DNA of 63,162 nucleotides from Candidatus Enterococcus myersii (GTDB lineage: Bacteria; Bacillota; Bacilli; Lactobacillales; Enterococcaceae). The stretch is from assembly GCF_017316025.1 (NCBI RefSeq), contig NZ_JAFLVT010000001.1, positions 264,303 through 327,464 of the forward strand, written 5' to 3'. Position numbers and translations under genes: made by a program. The notes beneath the pieces are model-generated. The model saw nothing but the letters and a program-made list of their open reading frames with translations. It made no database searches and had not been told where the DNA came from. Shown piece by piece: positions 1-19,255 of this stretch. Numbering within the stretch: the first letter of the stretch is position 1; each line of letters starts with the position of its first letter.

Positions 1-2
1 AA

Positions 3-119
3 GTTACGCTAGGTTTTTTGTTGTTAAGAGATGAAAAAATTTTCAGGCCAATATTTTTGCCAATGTTAGCGCAGTTTTATTTATACAAGAACTTTGAAGA
101 TAATAAGCTAAAAGAGTAA
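3..119 (+). CDS. C-terminal end of an unidentified gene (partial, 5' cut by window edge)
   Basis: An open frame enters from the left edge and ends at the TAA at 117-119. The 38 visible codons read as a hydrophobic and aromatic stretch followed by a charged tail ending in DNKLKE. This is a plausible C-terminus of a membrane protein, but there is too little to name a family. An 11-bp inverted repeat follows at 161-195, and the next gene is convergent. The frame could be open by chance; the evidence is composition and the downstream inverted repeat only. Confidence 0.35.
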   Translation, partial: VTLGFLLLRDEKIFRPIFLPMLAQFYLYKNFEDNKLKE

Positions 120-160
120 AAAGACAACAAGTTTTTAACATGAGCATTTTTTTAAGTAAG

Positions 161-195
161 CTTAGCTAAATTTCTACGGTTCTTATTTAGCTAAG
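161..195. repeat. 11-bp perfect inverted repeat between convergent genes
   Basis: CTTAGCTAAAT (161-171) and ATTTAGCTAAG (185-195) form a perfect 11-bp stem with a 13-nt loop. It lies between the end of the partial plus-strand frame and the end of the minus-strand permease, so it may end transcription from both sides. There is no clear T-run after the stem on either strand, so a standard intrinsic terminator is not certain. Confidence 0.5.
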
Positions 196-240
196 ATAAA
201 CCGCAATTTCTTAACAAAATTGATTGTAAGCAAGTTTTGG

Positions 241-1722
241 CTAAATAGGTTGGCTACGCTCAAAGCGTTGGTACAATTTGGCGGCTAGTAGTGCAAATAA
301 GCCTGGTCCTAAAATTAACGTGAGCACATTGTTATATTCACCGGCTTTCAGAGGTTCATAGACTTGAAAAAAAATTGCGACTGCTACACAGAGGCAAACA
401 CTGATAGAAAGCAGATGATTGACTCTTTTATCAGAAATTAAAAGTTCTTCTTGTCCGACGATATTTTTTCTAATGAAAAAAGGAAAGCTTGCGGCCACCA
501 CAAAATAGGGTAATGCGCGGGAAACATTGGTCATATAGGTAAGTTGATTGAATAGATTTCCGATAATTTGATTGTTAAAAGATAATGCGGCAATACAAAT
601 ACTAATCACACCTGCTTGTAGCCAGAGGGCATTATCTGGCATTTGTTTGTGGTTGAGTTTAATAAAAGACTTCGGCCATATTTCTTTTGGCGTGCCGGTA
701 ATTAAGCTTTTTAAAGGTCCGTAAGTAATGGAAGAAAGCAGCCCTAAGTAAGCTGTTAATAAGGTAAAAGCTGTATAGCGAATATAAAATTGATACAAAA
801 GATTCGTCTGCCAGTAATTAAAACCGAAAGCTTGTGCCAATGATTTTGCTAAGCTACCAGTTAAGCCATACATCAGATTTCCCAAGTGCATTTGATTGGT
901 TTGACGTAAAGCTGTGATATCGTTTGTTCCACTCCATAAAATGATGCCTAAGATGTATAATAAAGCGATAATTCCTGCACTGAAAATAACCGCTTGAGGA
1001 AATTTTTTGCGGCTTTCTTTGGTTTTATCTGCTAAACTAGCGACAGTATCTAAACCACCAAATGCTGTGATTGCAAAGATGAAAAAGGGTAATTGGCTAA
1101 AAAAGTGGTCATACGTTCCGGCAAAAAAGCTGGGTGCCTGCCAACTTTTAACTAAGTTTGGAATAAAATTGGCAGGTTGTAATACTAATAAAGTCAGGTT
1201 ACTAAAAAGCGAAAGTAGTAAAAGTGCAACCATGGCCAAGCTACTGATTTTTAAAAAAGATAAAATAGTTTTAAACCCGCGACTTAATAAATAGGTTAAA
1301 CATAAAACAGCAAGAATAGCTAAAAGTGCTAACCAGACTTGGGCGGGCAAGTTGAACCAATTCATTTGGCCAGTCATATCACTGCCAAACAGCAAAATAG
1401 ATAAAGGAATCATCAATTTCATAAAGAGACTGACCATCCAAGTGAAATAACTGCAATACCATAAAAAAGCAGTAATAAAGGCAACTTTAGGGGAGAAGGA
1501 ATCTTTTAACCAATCATAAATAGTGCCTTTTTGATGGGCGTATTTTTTGCTGTATTGCGCTACAATAAGAGCATAGGGGATAAAATAGCAAAGTGCGCTA
1601 ATAATAAACCATGCCAATGATTTGGTCCCCAGCATAAAAAAGGCAGTCGCCATACTTGAAAATGAATAAACGGTAGTAATAATAAGCAACATTAATGTTG
1701 TGATGGACATGTTTTTTTGCAT
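241..1722 (-). CDS. APC-superfamily amino acid permease (YjeM / glutamate-GABA antiporter-like)
   Basis: About 493 residues with roughly 12 hydrophobic segments, the usual length of amino acid-polyamine-organocation carriers. The order of segments, a charged loop after TM6-7 (around DKTKESRKKFP) and the early polar loop resemble the YjeM and glutamate:GABA antiporter branch. The substrate cannot be told. I place the start at the ATG at 1722, 10 nt after the AGGAGG at 1733-1738; a TTG one codon upstream (1725) is an equally spaced alternative. The gene is transcribed away from the nre genes. A TATAAT on the minus strand at 1753-1758 is a likely -10 element. There is no link in sequence to nitrite metabolism. 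Confidence 0.8.
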   Translation of the reverse strand: MQKNMSITTLMLLIITTVYSFSSMATAFFMLGTKSLAWFIISALCYFIPYALIVAQYSKKYAHQKGTIYDWLKDSFSPKVAFITAFLWYCSYFTWMVSLFMKLMIPLSILLFGSDMTGQMNWFNLPAQVWLALLAILAVLCLTYLLSRGFKTILSFLKISSLAMVALLLLSLFSNLTLLVLQPANFIPNLVKSWQAPSFFAGTYDHFFSQLPFFIFAITAFGGLDTVASLADKTKESRKKFPQAVIFSAGIIALLYILGIILWSGTNDITALRQTNQMHLGNLMYGLTGSLAKSLAQAFGFNYWQTNLLYQFYIRYTAFTLLTAYLGLLSSITYGPLKSLITGTPKEIWPKSFIKLNHKQMPDNALWLQAGVISICIAALSFNNQIIGNLFNQLTYMTNVSRALPYFVVAASFPFFIRKNIVGQEELLISDKRVNHLLSISVCLCVAVAIFFQVYEPLKAGEYNNVLTLILGPGLFALLAAKLYQRFERSQPI

Positions 1723-1752
1723 CAAGTGATTGCCTCCTCGTAAGATTACGGT

Positions 1753-1758
1753 ATTATA
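1753..1758 (-). promoter_or_regulatory. -10 element of the permease promoter
   Basis: Reading the minus strand, TATAAT occurs 31-36 nt upstream of the permease start. No good -35 hexamer is found at 17 nt. A partly palindromic GTTTTGTAACAAAC (1767-1780) sits just upstream and could hold an operator. This is inference from position and consensus only. Confidence 0.4.
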
Positions 1759-1819
1759 TTAGTGAGTTTTGTAACAAACTACAAGTTGGTTGTTGAAATA
1801 TAGGGAATTGGAGTAGCAG

Positions 1820-2257
1820 ATGAAAGATATAGTAAATTGGTTGCAAGAAAAAAGAAGTTTATGGCGCTGCGATTTTATTGGGATTGCGGTGAATTGTGCA
1901 CCTGCAAATGCCCCACAAACTATTCGTTGGCGTTATGTTAGCGGAAATAAAAGTGAAGCTTATCAGAAGATTCGTTTGAAAGTTGGGCGTGGGATTGCCG
2001 GAATGGTTTGGAAAACGGGACGTCCGCAAGCAGATGAAGCTATTTTTAGTCAGCCAGATAAATTATTAGAGTACCCGATTGCCAGAGTGGAGGCATTGGA
2101 TAGCATGCTGGCCGTTCCAGTCACCGTAAAAAACGAAGTAATCGGTATTTTGGCGATTGGTTTTCGCCATACTCACGCCTTTACCCCCACTGAAATAAAA
2201 GCTGTAGTGACAGCTGCTGAAATATTAGCACCAACTTTAAAGGAGTTGGAGTCATGA
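1820..2257 (+). CDS. nreA: NreA-like GAF-domain nitrate sensor
   Basis: A 145-residue single GAF domain. The segment RWRYVSGN, the run IRLKVGRGIAGMVWKTGRP and the later VPVTVKNEVIGILAIGFR correspond closely to staphylococcal NreA as I recall it. NreA binds nitrate and restrains the NreB kinase when nitrate is absent. It is followed at once by NreB- and NreC-like genes; its stop codon overlaps the NreB start (ATGA), so the three are translationally coupled. The start ATG at 1820 follows a GGAG at 1810. It is cytoplasmic. The family call is firm from motifs and context; nitrate as the ligand is inferred from the family. Confidence 0.85.
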   Translation: MKDIVNWLQEKRSLWRCDFIGIAVNCAPANAPQTIRWRYVSGNKSEAYQKIRLKVGRGIAGMVWKTGRPQADEAIFSQPDKLLEYPIARVEALDSMLAVPVTVKNEVIGILAIGFRHTHAFTPTEIKAVVTAAEILAPTLKELES

Positions 2258-3237
2258 TTATGTTTGAGGAAAATCTTTTTGCTCAATTGTCTGAAGCTAT
2301 CTGGCTTTTAGCAGACAATAAATGGCACCGGACATTAGCGGCAAAAAAATTAGAAAAAAGCTATCGTCTTGACTTGGCAAAAATAATTGCGATTGCCAAA
2401 GAAGAGAATACCGCTTCTGAGCTTGTGCCTGAAAAGAAAAGTAATTTTTTTGTTGTAGGTGAAATTACCCCAGCTGGCTTTCCTCTCATTTTACTAGATC
2501 AAGATAAAAATCCCCATGAATTTTGGGGGCAAGTTACTTTTGGCAAGCAGGCAACTTTGCTTCAAATTACCCTACAAAAAGCCTCAGATAATGTGAATTC
2601 GCTTTTTGGGTATTTAAATGACGCTAGAGAAAGTGAACGGAAAAAAATTGCCAAAGATCTACATGATGGGATTGCCCAAAGTATTTACAGTTTGATGTTG
2701 GAAACAAGGGGGTTAAAGTGGATAACACCAGAAATGCAGCCTGAAAAGTTGCAAGCCATTGACCGCCATTTTGCTGAGGTACTTGAAGAAGTCCGCGATT
2801 TAGCTGGTGAATTGCGTCCCATGTCCTTAGATGCCTTTGGTCTTGTACCGGCATTGGAGCAATTTATTGCCCGCACAGAAGAAATGACGGGATTTGAAAT
2901 TGACTTAACGGTTACAGGAGAGCAAGCTTCCTTATCTGAAACTGTACGGACGACTTTATATCGTGTGGTACAAGAAGCAGTGGCCAATGCTATGAAGTAT
3001 GCGGGTGTGAATCAAGTGCAATTAACTTTGACTTTTCAAACTTTTTTAACAATTGAAATTGTTGATTATGGTCGGGGCTTTCATTTACTGCAGGAAAAAA
3101 AAGGCTTAGGTTTAATGAACATGCAAGAGCGAATTCACGCTTTAAATGGCAGCTTTAGTTTAGTTACTGAGCCAAATCAAGGTACAAAAATAAAAATTAC
3201 GGTACCATTAGAGCATAGTGATGCCGCAAAGAATTAA
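2254..3237 (+). CDS. nreB: NreB-like sensor histidine kinase lacking the Fe-S cysteines
   Basis: A 327-residue cytoplasmic kinase. The N-terminal ~110 residues form a divergent sensor region. The dimerisation/phosphoacceptor box is ERKKIAKDLHDGIAQ with phosphoacceptor H137. The ATPase domain has the N-box around N245 (QEAVANAMKYAG), DYGRGF and GLGLMNMQERI, the HisKA_3/HATPase_c pattern of NarX/NreB-type kinases. Staphylococcal NreB senses oxygen with a four-cysteine [4Fe-4S] cluster in its N-terminal domain. This protein has no cysteine at all, so that mechanism cannot work here; regulation is more likely by nitrate through NreA. An ATG two codons downstream (2260) is an alternative start. 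It shares an operon with nreA and nreC. Confidence 0.85.
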   Translation: MIMFEENLFAQLSEAIWLLADNKWHRTLAAKKLEKSYRLDLAKIIAIAKEENTASELVPEKKSNFFVVGEITPAGFPLILLDQDKNPHEFWGQVTFGKQATLLQITLQKASDNVNSLFGYLNDARESERKKIAKDLHDGIAQSIYSLMLETRGLKWITPEMQPEKLQAIDRHFAEVLEEVRDLAGELRPMSLDAFGLVPALEQFIARTEEMTGFEIDLTVTGEQASLSETVRTTLYRVVQEAVANAMKYAGVNQVQLTLTFQTFLTIEIVDYGRGFHLLQEKKGLGLMNMQERIHALNGSFSLVTEPNQGTKIKITVPLEHSDAAKN

Positions 3238-3249
3238 AGGAGGAGCGCC

Positions 3250-3882
3250 ATGAAAATTTTGATTGCAGACGATCATGCTTTGGTTCGTAACGCATTGGCT
3301 TTTATGATTAATGCACAAGCGGACATGGAAGTTATTGGCGATGCTGCCGATGGCAACGAGGTCTTCATGAAAATTGAAAATTTGCCGGTAGATATCGTTT
3401 TGCTAGATATCAGTATGCCTCCAGGAGAAAATGGGTTGGTTACGACTAAACGGGTCAAAGAAGCGCATCCTAATGTAAAAGTTATTCTTTTGACAATGCA
3501 TGATGAAGAATCTTATATACGTGGTGCATTAGCGGCACATGCGGATGGTTTCGTATTAAAAAGTGCCACTGATGAAGAACTATTAACAGGAATTCGTAAC
3601 GTTTTTTTAGGCAAACGTTATTATGCTGGCTATGATGAAGAGGCGTTAAATGAAATTGCTCATGGACAAGAAGATCGTTTATATGCCAGCTTATCTAAAA
3701 GAGAAAAAGAAATATTACCTTTGATTGCATTAGGGTATAACAATAAAGAAATTGCCGAACGACTTTTTATTTCTGTGAAAACAGTGGAAGTCCATAAGGC
3801 CAATATTCGTAAAAAGTTGCAGTTGGATAGTTATGCTAGCTTATTGCAATATAGTTTAAAGCACCATTTGATCGATTTTTAG
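3250..3882 (+). CDS. nreC: NreC-like NarL/FixJ-family response regulator
   Basis: A 210-residue regulator. The receiver domain has the acidic pair D7/D8, the phosphorylation site D53 (VLLDIS) and the conserved Lys in FVLKSA. A LuxR-type helix-turn-helix follows from about residue 147 (LSKREKEILPLIALG through KTVEVHKANIRKKL). The strong site AAGGAGGAG precedes the ATG by 4-5 nt, and the gene starts 12 nt after nreB. The expected role is to activate nitrate/nitrite genes when phosphorylated by NreB; the palindrome at 5170-5183 before nirB fits the NreC target described in staphylococci. Confidence 0.88.
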   Translation: MKILIADDHALVRNALAFMINAQADMEVIGDAADGNEVFMKIENLPVDIVLLDISMPPGENGLVTTKRVKEAHPNVKVILLTMHDEESYIRGALAAHADGFVLKSATDEELLTGIRNVFLGKRYYAGYDEEALNEIAHGQEDRLYASLSKREKEILPLIALGYNNKEIAERLFISVKTVEVHKANIRKKLQLDSYASLLQYSLKHHLIDF

Positions 3883-3907
3883 TAGTTTTTTTAAAGGAGG
3901 AAAAGTT

Positions 3908-4621
3908 GTGCCAGCAAAAAAAGGGGTTATATTTGTTTTACACGGACGCCAAGATCACATTGTCAAAACGAATATTGCTGCCATTGAACAGGCAGCGCGA
4001 GCAGTATCAGTTCCTTTTGCCATCGGTTTTTTAGAAGGAAAACATCAAACGTTAGAAGATAGCATTGCAAAACTTGTTGCAAAAGGCTGCCAGGAATTTA
4101 TCTTTTTGCCAGTGTTATTGTTTGCAGCTACCCACGTTAAAGTAGAGTTGCCAATGCGCGCGGGAGCTGTTTTGCCCAAAGAGGCTATTGCAACTTATTT
4201 AGAACCCCTTGGCACAACCCATGCTGTTTTGCGTTTTTTAGCAGAGCAATTAGCAGCGCAACCAAAACTTTTACCACAATCTGTTTTATTAATCGCCCAC
4301 GGGACGCCTCATTTTTTGGAACCTTATGCGCAGCTAGCAGAGATTGCCCAGAAATTGACGTTAATTTCTGGACGTAAAGTTTATCCTGCCAATTACCATG
4401 GTGAGCATCTTTATACAGCAGTTTTAAACCAAATCCCGACACCCTTAATTGTTCAACGGCTTTTTCTCACAGAAGGATTTTTACCGACAAAAATTAAACA
4501 AGATATTGTGACAAAACGAGGAACTAAAGATACGATTTTACCCACTTTGGCGGATAGTCCAGCAGTGGTCGCAGCGATTTTAGAAAGGTTGGCAGATAGC
4601 AATGTTACCGATCATGCTTGA
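3908..4621 (+). CDS. sirB: Sirohydrochlorin ferrochelatase (CbiX/SirB type)
   Basis: A 237-residue protein with two CbiX-like halves: FVLHGRQDH near the N-terminus, FLPVLLFAATHVKVELP around residue 75, and a second LIAHGTPH around residue 130. The histidines in these segments are the usual metal-contacting positions. It should insert Fe2+ into sirohydrochlorin, the last step to siroheme, the cofactor of NirB. The start is GTG at 3908, seven nt after AAAGGAGG. The 3' end overlaps the next gene by 20 nt, so the two are coupled. A role in cobalt insertion is possible by homology, but the nitrite reductase context argues for siroheme. Confidence 0.85.
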   Translation: MPAKKGVIFVLHGRQDHIVKTNIAAIEQAARAVSVPFAIGFLEGKHQTLEDSIAKLVAKGCQEFIFLPVLLFAATHVKVELPMRAGAVLPKEAIATYLEPLGTTHAVLRFLAEQLAAQPKLLPQSVLLIAHGTPHFLEPYAQLAEIAQKLTLISGRKVYPANYHGEHLYTAVLNQIPTPLIVQRLFLTEGFLPTKIKQDIVTKRGTKDTILPTLADSPAVVAAILERLADSNVTDHA

Positions 4622-5060
4622 TGTTGTCACTATGAAAATTTTAGTTGTCGGGGCAGGGAAGATTGCTACTAGAAAAATTCAAAAACTAGTGGCAGCCGGA
4701 AATAGTCCGACGGTAATTGCACCTGTTGCCAGTGATTATGTGCAAAAAGCAGCAGTGGCAAAAAAGATAACGTGGCACAAGCGAATCTACCAAATAGGGG
4801 ACACTGCTGATTTTCAAATGATTTTCATTTGTACCAATGACGATAGGGTGAATCATGAAATCACAAGAGACATTTTACCAACACAACTTGTGAATGATAC
4901 GACAAATAAAGCCAACAGTAATTTTTTTAATTTGGCGAGTTTTACGTATCATGATTTTGAAATTGCACTTTCTTCTAAGGGGAAAAGCCCAAGTCAAACA
5001 AAAGAGTTAAAAGAAAAATTGCAGCAAATCTTAAGAAATGAAGACAGTCTCAATAGCTGA
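4602..5060 (+). CDS. sirC: Precorrin-2 dehydrogenase / siroheme synthase N-terminal domain (SirC/YlnF-like)
   Basis: 152 residues with the family start MLPIMLD, a Rossmann dinucleotide motif (ILVVGAGKIATRKIQKL) and the segment IFICTNDD. It also has DTTNKANSNFFNLAS, where CysG-type dehydrogenases carry a conserved Asn and Asp. It oxidises precorrin-2 to sirohydrochlorin with NAD. The length matches stand-alone bacterial SirC proteins and there is no fused methyltransferase domain, so the SUMT step must be encoded elsewhere. It overlaps sirB by 20 nt. An intrinsic terminator begins inside its last codons (5044-5072), so it ends the nreABC-sirBC transcript. Confidence 0.85.
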   Translation: MLPIMLDVVTMKILVVGAGKIATRKIQKLVAAGNSPTVIAPVASDYVQKAAVAKKITWHKRIYQIGDTADFQMIFICTNDDRVNHEITRDILPTQLVNDTTNKANSNFFNLASFTYHDFEIALSSKGKSPSQTKELKEKLQQILRNEDSLNS

Positions 5061-5072: not shown

Positions 5073-5169
5073 ATCTGACCGAAGGATAAGAAAAAGGTGA
5101 TGGGCTACTTTGGTGTTTGCAGGAAAAGGCAGCATTTTTTTGGTTGCTTTGTGAAATAAACAACAAATA

Positions 5170-5183
5170 TAGGGGATTCCCCA
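5170..5183 (+). promoter_or_regulatory. NreC-type operator upstream of nirB
   Basis: TAGGG-GATT-CCCCA agrees with the staphylococcal NreC target TAGGG-N4-CCCTA except at the fourth base of the right half. It lies 61-74 nt before the nirB start codon, a suitable place for an activator. The match to known NreC sites is from memory of that family; binding by this regulator is inferred. Confidence 0.6.
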
Positions 5184-5243
5184 ATAGGTTTCAAGGGTGA
5201 TTTCTTTTATTGTGAAGCTATTAACAATAAAGGTGGAAAATCC

Positions 5244-7673
5244 ATGAAAGAACGTTTAGTCGTAATCGGAAACGGAATGGCGGGAGTTCGAACGATTGAA
5301 GAAATTATCAGTCGTGATCCAGATCGCTATGAAGTAACTATTATTGGTAAAGAAGCTTATCCAAATTACAATCGCATTATGTTATCCAATGTTTTGCAAA
5401 ATAAAATGACAGTGGAAGAAATTATTACTAATCCAATTGCTTGGTATACAGAAAACCACATTCAATTAATTAATCATGATGAAGCTGTCGGAGTCGATAC
5501 TGAAAACAAAATTATTACTACCAATTCTGGACAAGTCGTTCCTTTTGACAAACTGCTTTTTGCAACCGGCTCACATCCATTTCTCTTACCAATTCCTGGT
5601 GTTGATAAAGAAGGTGTGGTCGCTTTTCGTACGATTGATGATACAGCAGCAATGTTACAAGCTGCTGCAAAATATAAAAAAGCAGTCGTAATCGGTGGTG
5701 GATTATTAGGTTTAGAAGCAGCCAAAGGGTTATATGACCAAGGAATGGACGTTACCGTCGTTCACTTAGCCAAGTGGTTAATGGAAACTCAACTAGATGA
5801 AAAAGCAGGCAAGTTATTACAAGCTGAGCTTGAAAATCAAGGATTGAAATTTTTGTTAGAACACAACACTAAAGAAATTCTAGGGGATACACGAGTAGAA
5901 GGGATGCGCTTTAGTGATGGTAGTGAGATTGCAACCGACTTAATTGTGATGTCGATTGGAATTCGTCCGGCAGTAGAGTTGGCACTAGAAATCGGCTTGA
6001 CGGTTAATCGTGGAATTGTGGTAAATGACTATATGGAAACCAATTTACCAGATATTTACGCAGTCGGGGAATGCGCTGAACATAATGGTATTTGTTATGG
6101 TCTGGTGGCACCTTTATTTGAACAGGGCAAAGTTTTAGCAGATAAATTAACACAACAAGCCGATATTAAGCCTTATCAAGGTTCAACGACGTTTACTTCG
6201 TTGAAAGTTTCGGGGGCAGATCTTTATTCTGCGGGCAATGTTGTAAATACAGAAGGTCTAGAAAGTATTGAAGCTTTTGATAGTAGCAGTAAAAAATACA
6301 AGAAGATTTTCTTAAAAGACGGAAAAATTGCCGGTATCGTTTTGTACGGCGACACAGAAGACGGCAGTCGCTATTACAACATGATGAAAAAAGGACAATC
6401 TTTAGATGAGTTACAAACAATCGCAGTTTTACAAGCGATTGGCGAAGGTGCTGGCACAGGCGATGATGTTTTATCATGGGATGAGGATGAAACGGTTTGT
6501 GGCTGTAATGGTGTTTCAAAAGGCGATATTCTCCGTTCAATCCGGGAAAAAGGATTAACCAGTGTCGCTGAAGTTGGGAAAGTTACAAAAGCGGGAACTT
6601 CATGTGGTAAATGTAAACCGCAAGTACAAACTTTGTTAGAAGCTGAACTGGGCGATAGTGTTACAGCGGCAACAGGAATCTGTGGTTGTACAGATTTAAA
6701 TCGAGATCAAGTGGTAACACAAATTTATGCCAAACATTTGTTGAGTACCAAAGAAGTATTTGAAACCCTCGGCTGGAAAAATAAAGAGGGCTGTCCTAAA
6801 TGTCGTCCGGCGGTCAATTTCTATTTAAATGTGGCCTGGCCAAAAGAGCATGAGGATGAACGTGAATCGCGGGTTGTAAACGAACGGATGCATGCCAATA
6901 TTCAAAAAGATGGGACTTTTTCGGTTATTCCCCGGATGCGTGGTGGTCAAACAACACCGCAACAATTATTAAAATTGGCACAAGTAGCGGAAAAATACAA
7001 TGTCCCATTGGTCAAAGTCACCGGTTCTCAGCGCATCGGCCTTTATGGTGTGAAAAAAGCTGACCTGCCAAAAATATGGGAAGAATTAGATATGGTTGCA
7101 GCCCAAGCGTATGGCAAAGTATTCCGCTCTGTTAAAACTTGTGTGGGGAAAAGCTTCTGTCGTTTTGGTACCCAAGATACAATGGGCTTAGGGGTAAAAT
7201 TGGAAGAGACATTTGAGTATTTGGATACGCCCCACAAATTTAAAGTCGGTGTTTCGGGTTGTCCTCGCAGCTGTGTCGAATCGGCGGTAAAAGACTTTGG
7301 GATTATTGGTGTGGAAAATGGCTTTCAAGTAATGATTGGCGGCAACGGCGGAACAGAACTTGTCGAAGCCAAAATGTTAGGGACTTTTGAAACAGAAGCT
7401 GAAGTTATTGAACTCTGTGGTGCAATGTTGCAATATTATCGTGAAACAGGCGTTTACGGTGAACGGACAGCGCCTTGGGTTGAACGGATGGGCTTTGATA
7501 ATGTGAAGACCGTCTTATTGGATACGAAAAAAAGAGTAGAGCTATGGACAGCATTACGTGAATCATTAGAGGCAAAAGGTCAGCGGGATCCGTGGGGACC
7601 AATTACAAAAGATGTTGATTTACGAGAAAAAATGTATACGATTGAAAAACCGGAAAAAGTGGAGGTTTCGTAA
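5244..7673 (+). CDS. nirB: NADH-dependent assimilatory/dissimilatory nitrite reductase, large subunit
   Basis: 809 residues, the normal NirB size. In order: FAD domain (VVIGNGMAGVRTIEE), NADH-binding segment (VIGGGLLGLEAAKG, ~residue 150), two BFD-like [2Fe-2S] cysteine sets (CGCNG...CGKC near 418-460; CGC...CPKC near 480-525), and a sulfite/nitrite reductase domain. The siroheme-[4Fe-4S] ligands are all present: C633-x5-C639 and C673-x3-C677. The enzyme reduces nitrite to ammonia with NADH in the cytoplasm. It is preceded by an NreC-type palindrome and a good site (AAAGGTGG), and its stop overlaps the nirD start. It looks intact. Confidence 0.95.
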   Translation: MKERLVVIGNGMAGVRTIEEIISRDPDRYEVTIIGKEAYPNYNRIMLSNVLQNKMTVEEIITNPIAWYTENHIQLINHDEAVGVDTENKIITTNSGQVVPFDKLLFATGSHPFLLPIPGVDKEGVVAFRTIDDTAAMLQAAAKYKKAVVIGGGLLGLEAAKGLYDQGMDVTVVHLAKWLMETQLDEKAGKLLQAELENQGLKFLLEHNTKEILGDTRVEGMRFSDGSEIATDLIVMSIGIRPAVELALEIGLTVNRGIVVNDYMETNLPDIYAVGECAEHNGICYGLVAPLFEQGKVLADKLTQQADIKPYQGSTTFTSLKVSGADLYSAGNVVNTEGLESIEAFDSSSKKYKKIFLKDGKIAGIVLYGDTEDGSRYYNMMKKGQSLDELQTIAVLQAIGEGAGTGDDVLSWDEDETVCGCNGVSKGDILRSIREKGLTSVAEVGKVTKAGTSCGKCKPQVQTLLEAELGDSVTAATGICGCTDLNRDQVVTQIYAKHLLSTKEVFETLGWKNKEGCPKCRPAVNFYLNVAWPKEHEDERESRVVNERMHANIQKDGTFSVIPRMRGGQTTPQQLLKLAQVAEKYNVPLVKVTGSQRIGLYGVKKADLPKIWEELDMVAAQAYGKVFRSVKTCVGKSFCRFGTQDTMGLGVKLEETFEYLDTPHKFKVGVSGCPRSCVESAVKDFGIIGVENGFQVMIGGNGGTELVEAKMLGTFETEAEVIELCGAMLQYYRETGVYGERTAPWVERMGFDNVKTVLLDTKKRVELWTALRESLEAKGQRDPWGPITKDVDLREKMYTIEKPEKVEVS

Positions 7674-7975
7674 TGAAAGTTTTAGCCACCAAAAAAAGTA
7701 AACTCATTCCACGAGTGGGGCGTTCGGTCACCCTTAAGGATGAAAAAATTGCGATTTTTACGACTTCTGAAGGGAAAATTTACGCTTTAGCTGATTACTG
7801 TCCCTTAACAAAAGGACCGATTTTAGAAGGCATGGTTGCAGGGGATTACCTCTATGAACCGATGCGGGATTACAAAATCTCCCTTATTGACGGTAGGATT
7901 CAAGAACCTGATGAAGGTCAGATCAAGACTTTTCCAGTTATGATTGACGAAGATGAAGTTTACGTTGAAATCTAA
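7673..7975 (+). CDS. nirD: Nitrite reductase small subunit
   Basis: 100 residues with a Rieske-like fold pattern (VGRSVTLKDEKIAIF, KIYALADYCPLTKGP). Like other NirD proteins it lacks the two Cys-His pairs that bind a Rieske cluster; only one cysteine is present. It is the small partner of NirB, with start and stop overlapping (TAATG). A long hairpin lies downstream (8004-8073). Confidence 0.9.
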   Translation: MKVLATKKSKLIPRVGRSVTLKDEKIAIFTTSEGKIYALADYCPLTKGPILEGMVAGDYLYEPMRDYKISLIDGRIQEPDEGQIKTFPVMIDEDEVYVEI

Positions 7976-8092: not shown

Positions 8093-8770
8093 ATGAAAAA
8101 AGCGTGCATTTTGCTAACACGTTTAGCTGACTTAAATGAAGTGGATCAAGCTTTTTTTATAGCCAAGGGTTATCAGACGCAAATTTTACCTTTAACTGAA
8201 ATTTCCTTACGAAAATTATCCGCTAACGAAATTGCAGAAATTAAAGCAACCCAGTGGCTTTTTTTTACAAGTCAAGTCCCGGTTGAAAGTGTTTTAAAGC
8301 ATGCCCAATCTAGTGTGAAAATCGCTGTAATTGGACAAAAAACTGCCCAAGCAGTGATAAATGCAGGTTTTACCCCTACTTTTATTAGTCCCAAAGAGAC
8401 AAAGGAAATGCTGTTAACGACTTGGCAAAAAGCCTACCCTAAAAAAATACGTATTTTATATCCGAAAAGTCAATTGGCAGATAATAATGTGGAAAAGATG
8501 CTGGCAAATTACGAGGTACAGAGTTTTATTGCGTATGACAACCTTTTTCCACTGACGAGTCAAAAAAAGTTAGAAAAGGTGTTGGAGACAAAAAAAATCA
8601 CCGCCGTATATTTTACGAGTCCTTCTGCTTGGCGCCGTTTTATTAAGGTTTATAAAAATTATTCGGCTTTGCCGTTACAGTTTGTTGCTATTGGCGAAAC
8701 AACAAAAAAAGCAATTGAAAAAGCCGGGTATACTGCACGATTGAAAAGTGACGTAGAAAAGATTGATTAA
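8093..8770 (+). CDS. hemD: Uroporphyrinogen-III synthase
   Basis: 225 residues with a HemD-like two-lobe pattern: LLTRLADLNEV, WLFFTSQVPVESVLKH, IAVIGQKTAQAVINAGF, then VYFTSPSAWRRF and FVAIGETTKKAIEKAGY. It closes hydroxymethylbilane to uroporphyrinogen III, the branch point to siroheme. It has an AAAGGA site and follows nirBD, so it is likely expressed with them when the preceding hairpin is read through. HemD proteins are poorly conserved, so the call rests on these motifs and on the siroheme context. No hemA, hemL, hemB, hemC or cobA is in the window. Confidence 0.8.
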   Translation: MKKACILLTRLADLNEVDQAFFIAKGYQTQILPLTEISLRKLSANEIAEIKATQWLFFTSQVPVESVLKHAQSSVKIAVIGQKTAQAVINAGFTPTFISPKETKEMLLTTWQKAYPKKIRILYPKSQLADNNVEKMLANYEVQSFIAYDNLFPLTSQKKLEKVLETKKITAVYFTSPSAWRRFIKVYKNYSALPLQFVAIGETTKKAIEKAGYTARLKSDVEKID

Positions 8771-18558: not shown

Positions 18559-18587
18559 TTAGGCGAGGTTTTTAAACCTCAAATATG

Positions 18588-18686
18588 ACAGAGTAGGAAA
18601 TAAAGCGTTAAGTGTCTGAGGGATGGGATGTTGCCCTTGGGACGAAGGATTGCATGCAATTCGCGGTTTTATTTTCGCATTCGCTG
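18588..18686 (+). promoter_or_regulatory. Tetrahydrofolate riboswitch
   Basis: The conserved parts of the THF aptamer are present in order: GAGTAG (18591-18596), GCGTTAAGTG (18605-18614), GATGGGATGTTG (18622-18633), GACGAAGG and CGCGGTTTTATTTTCGCAT, with closing GCTG. GGAAATAAAGCG pairs back to the TTTATTTTC side. It lies directly before folT. A hairpin of the GCTGC/GCAGC type and the RBS region follow, so control is probably at translation initiation. Confidence 0.85.
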
Positions 18687-18727
18687 CATTATTTTATGCG
18701 GCAGCTCTATTAAGGAGATGCTGAGTT

Positions 18728-19255
18728 ATGAAAAGAAAACTAGATGCCTATAAGATTGCGGTCATGGCAATGTTAATTGCTTTGATGGTTGTTTTATCGC
18801 AAGTTTTCGGGTTTGAAACCCAATTATTAAAAATCACTTTTAGCTTTGTACCAGAAGTGGTGATGGCAACTTTATTTGGTCCATTTTGGACTGGGGTTGG
18901 GGCAGTAATAGCCGATGTTATCGGAAATACTTTATTGGCTAAGTCCCCATTTTTTATTGGCTTTACTTTTAATGCCTTTTTAGGTGGACTTATTTATGGT
19001 TTTTTCTTTTACAAAAAAGAAATTACGTTAAAAAATTCTTTTCTGTGTGTCTTAGTTAACACCGTGGTCTTTAGTTTTTGCTTAACGCCACTGTGGTTAT
19101 CTTTGATGTACGGCATGGATTTAACTAATCCGGGATTATGGACAACCCGCTTGATTAAAGCGGTGATCATGATTCCTTTAGAAACGATGATTATCTATAT
19201 CGTAGGCCGAGCATTACCTTATCAACGTTTGGCAAAAAAACTACACTCAAATTAA
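18728..19255 (+). CDS. folT: ECF transporter S component for folate
   Basis: 175 residues, six membrane segments. FolT-type features: MALIALMVVLSQVF helix, a run around KITFSFVPEVVMATLFGPFW, DVIGNTL and SPFFIGFTFNAFLGGLIYG. The upstream THF riboswitch supports folate as the substrate. It needs the EcfA1A2T module encoded elsewhere. The site AAGGAG precedes the ATG by about 9 nt. Monocistronic, with the terminator at 19285. Confidence 0.9.
   Translation: MKRKLDAYKIAVMAMLIALMVVLSQVFGFETQLLKITFSFVPEVVMATLFGPFWTGVGAVIADVIGNTLLAKSPFFIGFTFNAFLGGLIYGFFFYKKEITLKNSFLCVLVNTVVFSFCLTPLWLSLMYGMDLTNPGLWTTRLIKAVIMIPLETMIIYIVGRALPYQRLAKKLHSN

Follow-up and report, generated by a model that had tools for sequence, protein, structure and literature searches.

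Focal loss of the putative Fe-S loop from an enterococcal NreB-type kinase, encoded in an nreABC-nirBD locus and preserved in its other parts

The window, the whole 63,162-nucleotide stretch of DNA that was analysed, belongs to an Enterococcaceae genome (G000) of 2.97 Mb in 28 contigs. It carries near its start a gene for an APC-type amino-acid permease (241..1725, reverse strand; family name by reading the sequence), divergent from nreA, and a permease-like gene was also seen by inspection beside nre in eight of ten other nre-nirBD loci (L045-L054). On the forward strand, nreA encodes an NreA-like GAF protein, the presumed nitrate receptor (1820..2257), and overlaps by 4 bases the downstream ORF for an NreB-like cytoplasmic histidine kinase of 327 residues that lacks cysteine (2254..3237, forward, recognized from its ORF, Pfam matches and alignment). 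A NarL-type response regulator resembling NreC and 94% identical to the NreC of the closest sequenced relative (G008) follows (3250..3882, forward). A reading of the sequence alone (the sequence-only reading) had placed the kinase in an nreA-nreB-nreC operon; the gene order bears this out, with an NreA of the GAF type. The kinase comprises an N-terminal PAS-like sensory domain (residues 1-115; 2254..2598, forward), outlined by the profile of its relatives and by fold prediction, and a DHp/ATPase core with the phospho-acceptor H137 (residues 116-327; 2599..3234, forward). Within the PAS-like domain, alignment with homologues marks an eroded putative cluster loop (residues 48-70; 2395..2463, forward) with the substitutions C53T, H56E, C62K and C65F.

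NreA matched the PDB NreA structure best (4pau, E 1.8e-17) and falls outside the curated equivalog (NF038250, 90.7 bits against a cut-off of 175). The W, GRGIAG and YPI residues, which we take to form the nitrate pocket of NreA, are conserved in the alignment.

Downstream on the forward strand lie genes for a sirB/CbiX-type sirohydrochlorin chelatase (3908..4621), the precorrin-2 dehydrogenase SirC (4602..5060, from profile matches), the nitrite reductase large subunit NirB (5244..7673; TIGR02374, 926 bits), a NirD-like small subunit (7673..7975; TIGR02378, 64.6 bits, just below the cut-off of 74.65) and the uroporphyrinogen-III synthase HemD (8093..8770; HEM4, 3.3e-35). The NirD-like protein has a single cysteine despite its Rieske_2 match and therefore lacks the usual Rieske cluster ligands. 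The operon is without hemC and cobA; a broken siroheme route was rejected as an explanation on finding hemC and a cobA-like tetrapyrrole methylase gene about 35 kb upstream, and hemC, hemD, the cobA-like methylase, sirC and sirB are all in the genome (L199:8609-10502). HemB (PF00490) matched in only one of 105 family genomes and was not found in that of the window, and siroheme synthesis may be fed by import, starting from porphobilinogen or a precursor further along the route. Elsewhere in the window, a THF riboswitch (RF01831, 82.8 bits) lies at 18587-18688, before a gene at 18728. On the other side of the nre permease, genes for a DUF1858 protein and a DUF438-hemerythrin-PAS protein (L183:8344-9975) may form a separate O2/NO-responsive pair, and a similar large protein was recognized by reading beside the nre permease in G008 and in E. 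alishanensis. Also near nre are cas1 and cas2 with, judging by position, a likely csn2 (L183:2323-4176), absent there in the species representative (G007).

Two short elements precede nirB. The palindrome ATAGGGGATTCCCCAA (5169..5184) has 2 mismatches to TTAGGGN4CCCTAA, a pattern that we take, also from its position, to be a putative NreC site. Such palindromes were present with at most three mismatches in 12 of 12 nirB upstream regions, and with at most two in 11, the regions including that of the window and its 99%-identical counterpart in G007. With at most two mismatches, 0.007 palindromes are expected per 300 bases and 1.5 per 63 kb; putative NreC sites are counted here by position and recurrence, because the 2-mismatch pattern alone is not beyond chance. 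Three further matches in the scanned stretches of genome (window 31033, L055:19394 and L199:10834) have no evident link. Adjoining the palindrome is TTGTGAAGCTATTAACAA (5210..5227), a conserved Rex/FNR-CRP-like element of the form TTGTGA-N6-TAACAA, which occurs in 10 of the 12 nirB regions and in a GAACAA form in one more, leaving that of L054 with none. It resembles the Rex site of S. aureus, and FNR/CRP-type sites are similar too. The available part of PMC2883068 describes S. aureus Rex as binding upstream of narG and nirR, at the site TTGTGAAW4TTCACAA. As a genome-wide signal the Rex-like pattern was rejected (3 matches against 3 in the control), and within the window its one-mismatch form was found 6 times against 2.9 expected, with as many in 10 of 100 shuffles; what counts here is its conservation at nirB, in 11 of 12 regions. 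Because of this element, the S. aureus precedent and two Rex-type (PF06971) matches in the window genome, it is plausible that nirBD is redox-controlled independently of NreB.

We then considered the kinase itself. That it contains no cysteine and keeps its catalytic motifs, both asserted by the sequence-only reading, proved correct: the ORF has 0 Cys in 327 residues, and H137, N245 and D271-Y-G-R-G-F276 are all there, with H137, N245, D271, G273, G275 and F276 invariant in a 12-sequence alignment and Pfam matches to HisKA_3 (8.9e-13) and HATPase_c (2.1e-12). Upstream cysteines hidden by a wrong start were rejected, since the whole 338-codon stop-to-stop frame contains 0 Cys and is preceded by nreA; the kinase shows no stop or frameshift. 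The lack of cysteine is unremarkable by composition (an estimated probability of about 14% for 327 residues; among the 36 pruned window ORFs with 250 or more residues, 8 have none, the kinase counted) and striking by position. A search of the window genome for a second NreB found none, one other kinase matching at E 0.001 with 27% identity. The N-terminal region is recognized as a PAS domain of the family, with a PAS-like fold still predicted. The cysteine site that defines the Fe-S protein, whether as C-x2-C-x11-C-x2-C or in the clade's form C-x2-H-x5-C-x2-C, is absent, its positions being T53, E56, K62 and F65, and the kinase is not classed as an Fe-S NreB because this site was tested and found missing.

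To place this absence among relatives, homologues were collected by whole-genome search and genome-contig scan from Enterococcus, Listeria, Trichococcus and one contig labelled Sedimentibacter, giving 91 loci above 150 bits and 46 sequences distinct in their last 200 residues. The three cysteines of C-x2-[H]-x5-C-x2-C were kept in 44 of the 46 and the histidine in 41. Five further distinct homologues all had a cysteine motif (three in the clade form, two in the staphylococcal four-cysteine form; a sixth, L224, repeats L094 and was left out of the distinct count). In total a cysteine motif is kept in 49 of the 51 distinct homologues examined, and counting again with every locus above 150 bits included gave the same result; only the window kinase and that of E. 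canis are without one. By genome, the kinase was found at E 1e-40 or better in 36 of 105 family genomes, with the motif kept in 34; the kinase sequence in two same-genus relatives (G003 and G005) is that of records named Enterococcus diestrammenae and Enterococcus sp. CU9D (L071 and L068). The window kinase lost the motif by substitution, at the same length and with no gap, and the nearest homologue, that of G008 (75% identical, same genus), retains it. In the E. canis NreB (L073, G061) it disappeared through a 14-residue deletion. A tree pairs the window kinase with G008 at 100/100 and puts E. canis elsewhere, on a long branch whose exact placement is unsure, which points to independent losses.

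The sequence-only reading had measured the kinase against the four N-terminal cysteines of staphylococcal NreB. The loss is real relative to the homologues, the proper reference being the clade's C-x2-H-x5-C-x2-C and not the four-cysteine site. The staphylococcal CxxC-x11-CxxC was kept in 22 of 22 aligned sequences of that type. Comparison of the clade and staphylococcal N-terminal profiles by hhalign (96.6%, E 6e-10) aligned the last CxxC pairs, and the clade motif is probably equivalent to the staphylococcal site. The substitution allele without cysteine is known from one genome, and among the publications listed for NreB and nreABC, as far as their accessible text goes, no cysteine-less NreB appears.

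We next asked where the change is concentrated. Between the window kinase and its 75%-identical relative, 16 of 19 residues differ at positions 50-68, a density reached in none of 20,000 shuffles; the densest 19-residue stretch in seven other pairs of similar divergence held 10-14 differences. Against G008, dN/dS was 1.02 for the loop (residues 48-70), 0.16 for residues 71-115, 0.10 for the kinase core and 0.03 for NreC, values that are approximate, with dS near or above 1 and residues 1-47 saturated and not computable, and that average in time preceding the motif loss. Parsimony assigned 8-9 loop changes to the window branch and 0-2 to the G008 branch, against 1-4 and 2-4 for the kinase. The mean distance to ten outgroups was 0.888 for the window and 0.441 for G008 in the loop (residues 50-66), and 0.389 and 0.391 in the kinase, so that acceleration is confined to the loop. 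The window kinase keeps 57 of the 62 columns that are conserved at 95% or more among 43 other sequences; four of its five departures (G50, C53, C62 and C65) are in the loop, and the fifth, K181R, is common to G008. Compensating frameshifts behind the loop change found no support: 54 of 500 codon shuffles gave a gapped alignment as good. On this comparative evidence the loss of the putative Fe-S loop is real and focal, with the rest of the NreB-type kinase preserved, and it is probably old, because nonsynonymous divergence in the loop roughly equals the synonymous divergence of the gene, placing the loss early in the lineage.

The possible targets of the system were also considered. NarG was rejected as one, since no PF14710 match was found in the window genome; across the family such matches occurred in 2 of 105 genomes (G061 and G028). 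A search for molybdoenzymes found a narA-like enzyme of about 700 residues in the window genome. Its active-site stretch aligns best to the NapA of 2jim (NVDGNTRLCMATSV vs NVDGNPRLCMASAV), and the enzyme as a whole lies between formate dehydrogenase and the NasA/NasC models, below their cut-offs. Neighbouring genes encode a 4Fe-4S protein, an FAD oxidoreductase, a TehA-like transporter, ModABC-like proteins (by reading), MobA and MoeA. The narA-like gene was found in the window strain, G007, E. canis, G049 and G051; G010 was rejected as a carrier, its match being 26-28% identical and of another type, and other PF00384 matches (frames of 911-953 residues) were set aside by size, with G078 and G005 checked at 24-28% identity. 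An NreC-type palindrome lies upstream of the narA-like gene in the window strain, G007 and E. canis, and was not seen before those of G051, whose NreB has the cysteines, and G049, which has no NreB at E 1e-40. A further palindrome with 2 mismatches, whose weight lies in its shared position, stands between moeA and mobA in the window strain and E. canis; none was found in the 300 bases before narG of the E. canis NarG-type operon. The narA-like gene is open in G007 and E. canis. In the window strain it is broken at two contig ends (L212/L213; C11, C10) with short foreign tails, and the 5-base overlap at the break is like a target duplication or the trace of an insertion element.

The reading that we consider likeliest, at a probability of roughly one half, is that direct Fe-S sensing disappeared from this Nre system at an early date and that the kinase is active and switched mainly by nitrate through NreA. 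The PAS domain would once have held a Cys/His metal or Fe-S site (C-x2-H-x5-C-x2-C), by profile homology presumably an oxygen-labile cluster. Substitutions in the strain's lineage, soon after it separated from the nearest relative sequenced, would have removed this site, and purifying selection would have maintained DHp, ATPase, NreC and NreA. The kinase would now be active without a cluster: in the absence of nitrate NreA would hold it off, and in the presence of nitrate it would be released, so that NreC would activate nirBD according to nitrate. Oxygen or redox control, if any, would be exerted by some other factor at the element before nirB, for example Rex or a protein of the FNR/CRP type.

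Nitrate-only control would be likelier than its main rival, a slow decay of the system in which the cluster-less kinase is locked off or unregulated, the Nre branch has ceased to matter to the species and the strain is heading to the state of G007, which lacks nreABC. Decay is the less probable but still serious alternative. The G007 genome, compared with window 1-4457 and L183:6579-10000, has a clean deletion of about 7.9 kb. One end of it lies within an aldo-keto reductase gene and the other within sirB, at window base 4458; gone with it are the DUF1858 and hemerythrin-PAS genes, the gene for the permease, nreABC and the beginning of sirB. Because G007 has lost nreABC and kept nirBD (sirC, nirBD and hemD remain at 99%), the Nre branch is dispensable in the species, and the G007 nirBD keeps its NreC-type palindrome though without NreABC. 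An apparent orphan Nre system was observed in E. italicus (L056), where nreABC lies beside transposase-like genes (by reading) and no nirB was found among the ORFs of a 20-kb stretch. Besides the deletion, the interrupted Nap/Nas-type gene with its two contig ends and 5-base overlap and the loop dN/dS near 1 are what decay would produce. The biochemistry also speaks for it: in NreB of the S. carnosus type, [4Fe-4S] disassembly lowers autophosphorylation, according to the accessible portion of PMC8774646, so that an NreB without its cluster would most simply be expected to be OFF. Activity without the cluster thus needs a change that is not visible in the kinase core. Against decay, the loss appears old and the kinase has since accumulated no excess change, keeping the strongly conserved columns outside the loop; it has no stop or frameshift, NreC is under strong constraint, and the independent loss in E. 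canis is accompanied by an open kinase frame and operon. An old loss followed by maintenance of the kinase argues against simple decay.

It is improbable, though less so than the last alternative below, that the site now lost never served this clade for oxygen sensing and was instead structural or thiol-based (zinc or redox cysteines), in which case its loss would say nothing about oxygen. The clade motif does comprise three cysteines and a mostly conserved histidine (41/46) and not four cysteines, and WalK offers an example of a PAS domain that binds zinc, from what is available of PMC6624279 and PMC8534201. Against this stand the homology of the domain with the PAS of staphylococci, the alignment of the last CxxC pair and an operon that follows the logic of NreABC. 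The weakest alternative, a new PAS input (small molecule, flavin or partner protein) replacing the cluster, draws on the constraint at residues 71-115 and the persisting PAS-like fold, and is very unlikely: the sequence shows no signature of a new ligand, the loop changes as a stretch free of constraint would, and the constraint at residues 71-115 may reflect no more than dimerisation or contact with NreA; the sequence-only reading had offered such an input through the N-terminal region, and it gained no positive support here, the old ligand positions reading T, E, K and F in a retained PAS-like fold.

Returning to nitrate-only control, the system resembles staphylococcal NreABC (S. carnosus / S. 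aureus) in its gene order, GAF-type NreA, NarL-type regulator, cytoplasmic PAS-DHp-ATPase kinase and presumed nirBD target. It differs in that the window kinase is without cysteine, the ancestral motif of its clade is C-x2-H-x5-C-x2-C, the genome has no NarG match and NreA is under the equivalog cut-off. Homologous kinases and the same NreC-type palindrome are found in Enterococcus, Listeria and Trichococcus, where the inspected loci mostly show the same operon with sirB, sirC and nirBD; unlike the window kinase, these NreB proteins keep three cysteines (34 of the 36 Enterococcaceae genomes with NreB). NreBC of Bacillus licheniformis is likewise an Nre-type PAS kinase with a regulator but, unlike the window system, has no NreA; it is reported, in the part of PMC9918477 available, to sense H2S, possibly through heme. 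Closest in outcome is E. canis, whose NreB has also lost the motif and whose palindromes stand before nirB, before the Nap/Nas-type operon and between moeA and mobA; it differs in its 14-residue deletion, in being about 41% identical and in having NarGHJI-like genes elsewhere in its genome (L186).

Both cluster-less NreB kinases occur where the NreC regulon, because of these palindrome positions, seems to include the enzyme of about 700 residues. Over the 36 Enterococcaceae genomes with NreB, the motif is lost in 2 of 3 with a narA-like gene and in 0 of 33 without (Fisher p 0.005, a post hoc test resting on two events). We tentatively suggest, as a rather unlikely extension, that enterococci twice independently dropped the oxygen loop of NreB while the NreC regulon gained a Nap/Nas-type operon and molybdenum-cofactor genes; this would give a nitrate-only switch for NADH-linked reduction of nitrate to ammonium, with oxygen control left to the promoter (Rex/FNR-like).

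As judged from sequence, the window kinase would be an NreB-type kinase minus its oxygen input. If this is true, it would constitute a natural experiment in sensor rewiring, seen twice, in which one of the two inputs of a kinase was erased and its core left untouched. It would open to experiment whether NreB needs the Fe-S cluster in order to be active or is only gated by it, and in what way NreA could operate the switch by itself, and it would bear on enterococcal nitrate and nitrite reduction in gut and food.
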